DNA of 32,611 bases. Source: Caldifarciminota bacterium. Lineage in GTDB: Bacteria; Hydrothermota; Tepidihabitantia; SM23-42. The notes under the pieces were generated by a model. That model saw only the letters and a list, made by a program, of their open reading frames with translations, made no database searches and was not told the origin of the DNA. The stretch covers positions 77,377 through 109,987 of the forward strand of contig CP070802.1 in the NCBI GenBank assembly GCA_020343595.1, in the 5' to 3' direction. Position numbers and translations under genes: made by a program. Numbering within the stretch: the stretch's first letter is position 1; every line of letters begins with the position of its first letter. This document shows positions 25,236-26,978 of the stretch, in pieces.

Positions 25236-25284
25236 CTGTGGAATCTTGTCGTTTATCTTTGTAATCAATTTCTCGAAGAGAAAG

Positions 25285-25359
25285 CGGGGCCGACGAGAGT
25301 TGAACTCGCGACCTCCTGCGTGACAGGCAGGCGTTCTAACCAGGCTGAACTACGACCCC
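25285..25359 (-). tRNA. tRNA-Asp (anticodon GTC)
   Basis: The minus strand folds as a complete tRNA. The acceptor GGGGTCG/CGGCCCC has one T-G pair and discriminator G. The D-arm is GTTC/GAAC with loop AGCCTGGTTA. The anticodon arm is CCTGC/GCAGG with loop CTGTCAC, hence anticodon GTC, and the T-arm is GCGAG/CTCGT with loop TTCAACT. CCA is not encoded. Downstream, TTTCTC/GAGAAA (25269-25283) forms a small hairpin right after the 3' end. Transcription probably starts about 138 bases upstream, at the tRNA-like relic. Confidence 0.95.
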
Positions 25360-25394
25360 ATTTCAATGCCACGCCGCCCCTGATGTGATACTTG

Positions 25395-25496
25395 GGCAGG
25401 CGTTCTAACTCCCGTCCCTTCATGGGACGGGATCCTCATCAACTTCACGAAAGCACAAGCTTTCGGAAGTTATGGGACACGCTGAACTACGGCCCC
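25395..25496 (-). other. tRNA-Asp-like 5' half split in its D-loop by a 68-base insert
   Basis: On the minus strand, GGGGCCGTAGTTCAGCGTG (25496-25478) and GTTAGAACGCCTGCC (25409-25395) together reproduce the 5' half of the neighbouring tRNA-Asp through most of the 5' anticodon strand. They are separated by 68 bases in the D-loop. The 3' half (anticodon loop, T-arm, acceptor 3' strand) is missing or unrecognisable, so this is not a functional tRNA by itself. Its acceptor strand GGGGCCG would pair perfectly with the 3' strand CGGCCCC of the real tRNA. It lies directly behind a consensus promoter, so it should be transcribed as the leader of the tRNA-Asp precursor. Confidence 0.75.
25410..25477 (-). 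repeat. Two-hairpin insert in the D-loop of the tRNA-like relic
   Basis: The 68-base insert begins with TCCC and ends with GGGA on the minus strand. It folds into two strong hairpins. In the first, AACTTC + CGAAAGC pairs with GCTTTCG + GAAGTT around a TTGT loop, 13 pairs with one bulged T. In the second, TCCCGTCCC pairs with GGGACGGGA around ATGAA, nine pairs. Size and form resemble a small non-autonomous palindromic element (REP/MITE-like). No second copy is seen in this window. Confidence 0.6.
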
Positions 25497-25503
25497 TGAG
25501 GGT

Positions 25504-25531
25504 ATTATATACAGAATCGGGATTGAGTCAA
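25504..25531 (-). promoter_or_regulatory. Promoter of the tRNA-like relic and tRNA-Asp
   Basis: On the minus strand, TTGACT at 25531-25526, a 16-base spacer and TATAAT at 25509-25504. The expected start is near 25497, essentially the first base of the relic's acceptor strand. It stands back to back with the rhomboid promoter. Confidence 0.8.
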
Positions 25532-25541
25532 GATTTTTTTG

Positions 25542-25570
25542 TTGACAAATCCGCTAATATCTGCTATATT
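25542..25570 (+). promoter_or_regulatory. Promoter of the rhomboid gene, leaderless
   Basis: TTGACA at 25542-25547, a 17-base spacer and TATATT at 25565-25570. ATG 25578 lies seven bases further. A TTG at 25539, upstream of the -35 box, is in frame but would not be transcribed, so ATG 25578 is taken as the start. Confidence 0.78.
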
Positions 25571-25577
25571 CCATTTG

Positions 25578-26978
25578 ATGTTCTTCATTATTCCCATTGG
25601 CAGCGAAGAGGGGGTTAGGCGACTTCCGTATGTGACGATTGGTCTGATCGTCATCAATTCGGTGATATGGATCATTACCGCCTTGATTGTCGGCGGGCAG
25701 ATATCAGAATTGAATCAGATCAATGAAAGAATGCTCGAAATCGAAGTACATTATACATATCAGTTGATCGAAACCGACCCTGCCCTGCTGAACGAGTTCG
25801 ATTATGAAGAAATACGGAAGCGGATACTTGATGGTGAGATAATCCCGGTGGGCACTGAAGATTACCGGCAGTGGAGGCGTCTCTACGAGAATTTCACTGA
25901 GAAGAGCGGGCAGATGCTTTACAACAAATTCGGCTTCACGCCAGCCCGGTTCGATTTCTTCAAACTCTTCTCTTCCATGTTCCTGCATGGAAATTTCTTC
26001 CACCTGCTCTTTAATATGCTGTTTCTCTGGCTTGTCGGCTGTAATATCGAGGATGACTGGAGTTGGAAAGTATTCCTTGGACTCTACTTGATCGGCGGAC
26101 TGGTTGCGGGTATATTCCACGGTTTGGCTTTTCCCAAGAGCACGATACCGCTGATCGGCGCTTCGGGAGCCATTGCGGCCATAATGGGGGCCTTCATGAT
26201 CCGGCATTACAGGACGAAGATCCGCTTCGCATATTTTTTCCTCTTTTTCATCAGACCTTATTTTGGGGTATTCTCCATATATGCCGGTATTGCTCTGCCC
26301 ATATGGTTCCTGCAGCAGATTCTGGGAGCAAGTTGGGGTATGGAGTCGGGAACCGCTTACTGGGCCCATATCGGTGGATTCGTCTTTGGCGCGGTCATGG
26401 GCGTATCCCTCAAATTTTTCGGAATTGAGAAGAAATACATCGAACCAATGGTTGAAGATAGTTTTGAGAAATTGAAGATGTCGCCAAAGATGAAGGAAGC
26501 AAGCCGGCTTTTGGATATTGAGAATATGACCGATGCGGTTCCCTTGCTGCAGCAAGTAGTAGAGGAAGAAAGTCTCAATTATGATGCGCCTCTGATTCTG
26601 GCTCGCCTGTACTACGAAAGCGGCAACGATGAAGGTGCCCGGTCAATGTACGAGAAGGCAATGGATATTGCCCTCCGAACCGATAATGCTGATCTGATAT
26701 TTTCTTTGCACGATGAACTTGAGATGAAGCAATACTTAAGATTCTTCTCGGAGAAAACACTCTACAGACTCGCGAATTTCTACGAGCGAGCCGGCAAATA
26801 TGAAGAAGCTGTGAAGTTGTATGGTCTTCATATCCAGATTCACCAGACTAGTCAGGTCAGACCAAAGGCGATCCATAAGGTCCACATGCTGTTCAGGAAT
26901 CAACTGAAGGATGAAGTGATGGCAAGAAATGCCCTCGCGTACCTGGATAAAGAATACCCACAGTGGTTGCAGGTCTGA
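25578..26978 (+). CDS. Rhomboid intramembrane serine protease with C-terminal TPR-like domain
   Basis: The protein has 466 residues from ATG 25578. A first membrane helix (about 14-35) is followed by an unusually long loop of about 85 residues and then the rhomboid core. SSMFLHGNFFHLLFNMLFLWLVG is the HxxxxHxxxN-type helix, LIGASGAIAAIMG holds the nucleophile Ser196, and YWAHIGGFVFGAVMG holds His264, so the catalytic dyad is complete. From about residue 300 the sequence turns soluble and helical with TPR-like repeats (APLILARLYYESGNDEGARSMYEKAM and LYRLANFYERAGKYEEAVKLYGLH). Rhomboids cut transmembrane substrates; the TPR part may bind partners in the cytoplasm. It is a single-gene unit as far as visible. 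Confidence 0.92.
   Translation: MFFIIPIGSEEGVRRLPYVTIGLIVINSVIWIITALIVGGQISELNQINERMLEIEVHYTYQLIETDPALLNEFDYEEIRKRILDGEIIPVGTEDYRQWRRLYENFTEKSGQMLYNKFGFTPARFDFFKLFSSMFLHGNFFHLLFNMLFLWLVGCNIEDDWSWKVFLGLYLIGGLVAGIFHGLAFPKSTIPLIGASGAIAAIMGAFMIRHYRTKIRFAYFFLFFIRPYFGVFSIYAGIALPIWFLQQILGASWGMESGTAYWAHIGGFVFGAVMGVSLKFFGIEKKYIEPMVEDSFEKLKMSPKMKEASRLLDIENMTDAVPLLQQVVEEESLNYDAPLILARLYYESGNDEGARSMYEKAMDIALRTDNADLIFSLHDELEMKQYLRFFSEKTLYRLANFYERAGKYEEAVKLYGLHIQIHQTSQVRPKAIHKVHMLFRNQLKDEVMARNALAYLDKEYPQWLQV

Follow-up and report, generated by a model that had tools for sequence, protein, structure and literature searches.

Why does the only tRNA-Asp gene of a bacterial genome stand behind an interrupted copy of its own 5′ half, and how could such an arrangement arise? 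The question is posed by a locus in the window, the 32,611-nucleotide stretch of DNA analysed here. A sequence-only reading had offered two interpretations of the copy: a decayed tandem tRNA hit by a REP/MITE-like element, or a structured leader affecting tRNA maturation. Both are considered below by comparison across two related WOR-3 genera, g1 and g2, which are represented exclusively by species-level MAGs. To judge by its named near relatives, the window's genome belongs to candidate division WOR-3 (Stahlbacteria). The tRNA neighbourhoods of these genomes were analysed as sequence stretches.

Anatomy of the tRNA-Asp leader

All parts of the locus lie on the minus strand. The sigma-70-type promoter TTGACT-N16-TATAAT (25504..25531) matches the consensus at 11 of 12 positions. 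No other minus-strand promoter-like site was found upstream of tRNA-Asp, and in three relatives (G003, G004 and G006) the promoter occupies the equal position ahead of the relic. The relic begins with residues 1–18 of tRNA-Asp (GGGGCCGTAGTTCAGCGTG, 25478..25496), comprising the acceptor 5′ strand, the D-stem 5′ strand and the D-loop through G18. It resumes at G19 with GTTAGAACGCCTGCC (25395..25409): the remainder of the D-loop, the D-stem 3′ strand and the anticodon-stem 5′ strand. Between the two parts lies an insert of 68 bases (25477-25410) with TCCC and GGGA ends, present in the window as a single copy. Folding and covariation define two hairpins within it: TCCCATAACTTCC...GATGAGGA, of 45 nt (25433..25477), and TCCCGTCCC..GGGACGGGA, of 23 nt (25410..25432). 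The resident tRNA-Asp reads GGGGTCGTAGTTCAGCCTG|GTTAGAACGCCTGCC across the point at which the relic is split, and excision of the insert restores the D-loop without loss of a base. A further hairpin, CGCCTGCCC-aaGTATCACATca-GGGGCGGCG (25372..25402), replaces the anticodon arm, as judged from folding and comparison with relatives; its loop, GTATYACAT, is conserved within the genus. A linker of 12 bases (25360..25371), divergent among relatives, leads to the complete tRNA-Asp(GTC) at 25284..25359, identified by ARAGORN and by the Rfam tRNA model (66.5 bits).

The sequence-only reading had placed a promoter-proximal tRNA-Asp 5′ half ahead of the gene, with coordinates and bases that proved exact; its consensus promoter and its two-hairpin interruption without loss of D-loop bases are equally borne out. 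The hairpins had been called strong, and the 140-nt leader indeed folds at −64.6 kcal/mol (z = −6.0 versus shuffled sequences). The relic departs from the resident tRNA at two positions, with C for T5 and G for one C of the D-loop. The resulting acceptor strand GGGGCCG is, as had been pointed out, a perfect complement of the tRNA 3′ strand CGGCCCC; the relics of most relatives have GGGGTCG, as the tRNA does. Conserved competition through GGGGCCG is rejected, the variant being private to the window's genome. This tRNA-Asp is the only one among the 30 tRNA loci found in the 2.37-Mb genome, and its sole transcript therefore probably runs through the relic.

Other identities were considered for the window and rejected. 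A hammerhead ribozyme had been prompted by the motifs GATGA and GAAA; GAAA is base-paired in a hairpin, and there was no Rfam match. Group I introns and T-boxes likewise gave no Rfam match in the window, and group I introns were found at some other GIY-YIG loci. Back to back with the tRNA-Asp promoter, a second promoter (TTGACA-17-TATATT) precedes a divergent open reading frame (25539-26978), whose product we take, by eye, to resemble a rhomboid-type membrane protein.

The D-loop form among relatives

The unit precedes tRNA-Asp in G001, G003, G004 and G006, and in G008 of the other genus, g2. Partial or gapped versions occur in G002 and G007, the latter with a single hairpin, and the unit is absent from G005 and from the other genomes inspected. 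Tandem units are found in G001 and G002. Across the relic region, identity to the closest relatives with the unit is 83–88%, and compensatory changes on both sides affect 7 of the 29 pairs of the unit, a count reached by 1 of 500 shuffles; the relic is therefore not a product of chance. Its presence in independent genomes also excludes an assembly error. Those of its bases that derive from the tRNA are nearly invariant among the relatives, and the linker diverges.

The T-loop form at other tRNA genes

A 3′ form of the same arrangement lies behind tRNA-Pro, Leu, Ser, Gly, Met and Asp in both genera. It consists of a second copy of the tRNA T-arm and 3′ end, with a two-hairpin insert between T55 and C56, and its format, TCC..GGA/TCC..GGA, is that of the Asp D-loop unit. 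The window's own genome has two such units in tandem after tRNA-Pro(GGG). Downstream of tRNA-Asp in G003, G006, G008 and G021, a 3′-end copy has its T-loop split by a TCC..GGATCC..GGA insert of the same or closely similar format.

The distribution of the 3′ form is narrow. A hairpin pattern flanked solely by GTT and CRA was scanned against 147 genomes of the phylum and gave 13 matches, all within g1 and g2; the reversed-pattern control gave none in the same scan. Freed of its flanks, the pattern returned the identical 13 places, in 12 genomes. Every one of the 13 elements lies within a duplicate of the T-arm of the very tRNA it adjoins, split at T55|C56, and none lies elsewhere. All are downstream of a complete tRNA and in one orientation; the tRNAs concerned are Pro (three anticodons), Leu, Ser, Gly and Asp. 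Two tRNA-Met cases (G003 and G021) were detected by tRNA survey. Identity of the 3′ flanks is 98% with the tRNA next to them and 59% with the set's other tRNA species. One hairpin sequence is common to the Pro, Leu, Ser, Gly, Met and Asp loci and to both genera. The T-form hairpins covary. Read in reverse complement, hairpin 2 resembles hairpin 1, so that the double hairpin forms an approximate dyad; the tRNA arm contains no short target duplication. In tRNA structure, the pairs G18-psi55 and G19-C56 form the elbow; in canonical numbering, the breakpoints 18|19 and 55|56 part the residues of exactly these pairs.

The earlier label ‘REP/MITE-like’ does not hold in its usual dispersed sense, elements of this format being confined to copies of tRNA arms; a dispersed REP or MITE was rejected for lack of copies outside them, and a hairpin element free of tRNA similarity was sought in the relatives and not found. 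That an element struck a decayed tandem tRNA, as had been suggested, is unlikely: arrangements of this kind are found at six tRNA species in two genera, and comparison with empty sites shows partial copy and insert to be either both present or both missing. Beyond the phylum, the search covered GTDB genomes, in a single scan for the exact pattern of the Asp hairpin, as well as viral contigs and plasmids. A phage origin was rejected, the patterns being absent from the viral contigs, as was a plasmid origin, the plasmids giving only short, tRNA-only matches.

Occupied and empty sites

Two pairs of occupied and empty loci at tRNA-Met bear on how the 3′ units entered. In one, the flank TTTTCTATGG directly follows the tRNA in G004 and follows the relic in G003. 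In the other, an independent case, about 44 bases lie after the tRNA in G008 and after the relic in G021. Since the native flank stands behind the relic when the site is occupied and behind the tRNA when it is empty, the tRNA-Met unit must have been inserted, and the tRNA has remained whole. This evidence is direct for the T form only, and these tRNA-Met units carry no nuclease gene. For the 5′ form at tRNA-Asp, G005 and G002 have their promoter region in common, and in G005 the tRNA stands directly behind the promoter. The pair is only suggestive, because the G002 locus contains a gap in the assembly and its first unit is rearranged. Runs of N break the G002 relic locus (G002:C1; L007, L032) at 191 kb and 218 kb, 27 kb apart, and the break is probably a scaffolding error at repeats.

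GIY-YIG nuclease genes

G008 and G021 carry a small GIY-YIG gene (Pfam PF01541; E 1.8e-15 for the G021 protein) between tRNA-Asp and the 3′ relic. The protein of G021 (L012:294-533) has 79 amino acids. The tRNA-Asp unit of G003 has kept the start of such a gene, broken, and the window's unit and most T-form units have none. The small GIY-YIG proteins of WOR-3 are 79–83 amino acids long and chromosomally encoded. Their genes adjoin tmRNA (in four genomes), tRNA-Asn, tRNA-Pro, tRNA-Asp and group I introns. With the intron loci left out, 8 of 15 loci are near tRNA or tmRNA, versus about 6% estimated by chance (p about 7e-7, for loci that come from related genomes and are hence not fully independent). 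A literature search on GIY-YIG genes with tmRNA or truncated tRNA found nothing on this arrangement.

Other hairpins occur in the same setting. At tRNA-Asn of G021 (L047, G021:C45, 836-1406), two 5′ relics that are 95% identical have unrelated D-loop hairpins; one GIY-YIG gene lies between the relics and another after the tRNA. In G003, tRNA-Asn is accompanied by a nuclease gene, behind which a different hairpin interrupts a copy of the T-arm. The tRNA-Asn arrangements point to a shared way of life, not to one lineage.

Behind tmRNA, several loci carry a small GIY-YIG gene or a pair of them (L055/L065, at G000:C1:1787822-1788557; L053; L056; L057). After the first nuclease gene of G000 come hairpins and then a copy of the tmRNA 3′ end, CCCGCCGCCTCCATCA, which is the layout seen at tRNAs. 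Group I introns adjoin GIY-YIG genes in four WOR-3 genomes (L048, L049, L050 and L052). Open frames also run from within a tRNA into a GIY-YIG gene (L036, G008:C108, 1013-1381; L064, 1405-1740; e.g. MVEHPAVNRRVAGSSPARG...), and these are a likely source of misannotated N-termini.

Origin of the units

On balance, and with modest confidence, the feature in the window is interpreted as the 5′ (D-loop) form of a family of small, homing-type elements on the tRNA genes of two WOR-3 genera. The family would represent the remnants of a tRNA-invading element, with a predicted role for the nuclease. The proposed mechanism is as follows. (i) Each unit is a partial copy of the adjoining tRNA gene, and the tip of its duplicated arm carries a double hairpin, the points of insertion being G18/G19 in the D-loop (5′ form) and T55/C56 in the T-loop (3′ form). 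(ii) The small GIY-YIG nuclease, kept in the fullest tRNA-Asp copies of relatives, would break the tRNA gene; such enzymes can drive tRNA amplification, as SegB shows, and the WOR-3 enzymes may do likewise. (iii) Repair from an element-bearing copy would insert the unit and rebuild the tRNA; since every unit brings the missing part along or duplicates it, the tRNA stays complete. (iv) By interrupting the left-over arm, the hairpins would prevent both re-cutting and folding as a tRNA. Rebuilt and uninvaded tRNA are identical, so that any immunity must come from the changed flanks together with the hairpin, as we conjecture. (v) Repeats of tRNA sequence would permit tandem gain and loss of units. 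(vi) In the window, the nuclease would have been lost, and what remains would now serve the only tRNA-Asp gene as an obligatory, structured 5′ leader, which RNase P presumably cleaves off. The lack of a nuclease gene in most units, the window's own and the occupied tRNA-Met units among them, counts against a homing origin, as does the identity of rebuilt and uninvaded tRNA.

A functional RNA is a rather unlikely alternative. The units would be kept since the processed leader or trailer serves as a small RNA or controls maturation of tRNA-Asp, much as has been proposed for RtT RNA. A tRNA spacer acts as a sponge in the case of E. coli 3′ETS-leuZ. The compensatory changes that maintain the hairpins are compatible with this proposal, but a mobile element would conserve its hairpins equally. 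The near-invariance of the tRNA-derived bases beside a divergent linker also fits; gene conversion with the adjacent tRNA can, however, preserve such bases, and in G008 the variant ATTG is indeed common to the relic and its tRNA-Asp. The promoter directly ahead of the relic argues for function, as does folding. In a nearest-neighbour model that ignores modification, tertiary contacts and co-transcriptional folding, the native cloverleaf costs about 3.8 kcal/mol relative to the ensemble when alone and 8 to 10 with the relic. The added penalty is about 4–6 kcal/mol, with competition predicted at all six loci tested, and competition between relic and tRNA folds is thus possible. Against a functional RNA stand the lack of a relic at tRNA-Asp in G005 and most of the family, and the patchy presence of units at other tRNAs.

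It is improbable that REP/BIME-like hairpins were moved by a Y1 (RAYT-type) transposase into pre-existing tRNA fragments. In its favour are the approximate dyad form of the double hairpin, the lack of a short target duplication in the arm and the occurrence of Y1 transposases, which could be alternative movers of the hairpins, in 18 of 18 genomes tested. The Y1 genes are, however, equally present in genomes without the element; 12 genomes contain no copy outside tRNA arms, and partial tRNA copies would have had to pre-exist at six tRNA species, always in one orientation. It is highly improbable that tRNA-Asp simply duplicated in tandem and decayed through unequal crossing-over, its hairpins arising from replication slippage without any element. 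Tandem units and near-identical repeats do point to unequal crossing-over, but identical breakpoints and a shared hairpin sequence at different tRNAs in two genera largely contradict this account.

On the homing-type interpretation, an odd relic becomes part of a family with exact rules, and an essential single-copy tRNA carries an apparently parasite-derived leader. It becomes testable whether the small GIY-YIG nucleases, whose genes often lie next to tRNA or tmRNA genes in these genomes, act as homing enzymes directed at tRNAs. The family also hints at how tRNA tail repeats with hairpin interruptions, such as E. coli RtT, may have originated.

Comparison with known systems

Phages and integrative conjugative elements that integrate at tRNA genes keep the tRNA whole and leave a 3′ tRNA copy at their far end. 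WOR-3 units share the whole tRNA and the 3′ copy; they have no integrase, measure about 0.1–0.5 kb and interrupt the arm. Fungal mitochondrial double-hairpin elements consist of two consecutive hairpins, are dispersed over mitochondrial genomes and lie in some cases in RNA genes. They resemble the present units, by description only, in having two hairpins, but do not rebuild a tRNA. REP/BIME elements with RAYT are likewise short, paired, non-coding palindromes. REPs are dispersed between genes, whereas the WOR-3 elements are found in tRNA arm copies only. In T-even phages, the gene for the GIY-YIG enzyme SegB lies close to tRNA genes, whose tandem amplification the enzyme drives (PMC13096335). 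A GIY-YIG gene beside tRNA genes and the tandem amplification of tRNA segments are thus common to both systems; SegB belongs to phages, and the passages of PMC13096335 that were consulted describe no hairpin-interrupted tRNA copies, whereas the WOR-3 units lie on bacterial chromosomes.

In E. coli MG1655, the RtT or tyrT tail repeats follow each tRNA-Tyr with the T-arm 5′ strand AAGGTTCG, several hairpins and then AATCCTTCCCCCACCACCA, which equals the last 19 bases of tRNA-Tyr. To our knowledge, these repeats have been recognized for decades without an agreed origin. They are tandem 3′ tRNA copies with a hairpin-interrupted T-loop, and the WOR-3 3′ form is alike. In E. coli K-12 (NC_000913.3, 1286300-1287700; L197), the tyrT/tyrV repeats are seen to be T-loop-interrupted 3′ copies of tRNA-Tyr that retain the T-arm 5′ strand; a literature search found no description of them as such. 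RtT RNAs are described as being released from tyrT and other tRNA operons (PMC4986893, which cites Bosl and Kersten 1991 for RtT RNA). The RtT architecture is found in the WOR-3 3′ form but not in the window's own 5′-form unit. The tyrT break is at 57|58, whereas that of WOR-3 is at 55|56, and the tyrT hairpins are unrelated in sequence to those of WOR-3. The tyrT repeats occur in the 3′ form only, and no nuclease gene is annotated in the E. coli stretch examined. The Rfam RtT covariance model (RF00391) matched four times in the E. coli tyrT region, as a control, and not at all in the window or ten unit-bearing WOR-3 loci. Because of this, the WOR-3 units are set apart from RtT and classed as a new variant of tRNA tail and leader repeats. 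What is new here is the D-loop (5′) version, the exact breakpoints 18|19 and 55|56, the occurrence of one element across tRNAs and the link to a nuclease. Tentatively, and with somewhat less conviction than the family itself, the units may stand for a new class of tRNA-parasitic mobile element with a tiny GIY-YIG nuclease and double-hairpin ends. Such an element would insert between the elbow bases, rebuild the tRNA each time and move among tRNA species; its nuclease-free derivatives would remain beside essential tRNA genes as leaders and trailers. The tyrT repeats of E. coli would, on that view, be a remote, unexplained example of such an element.
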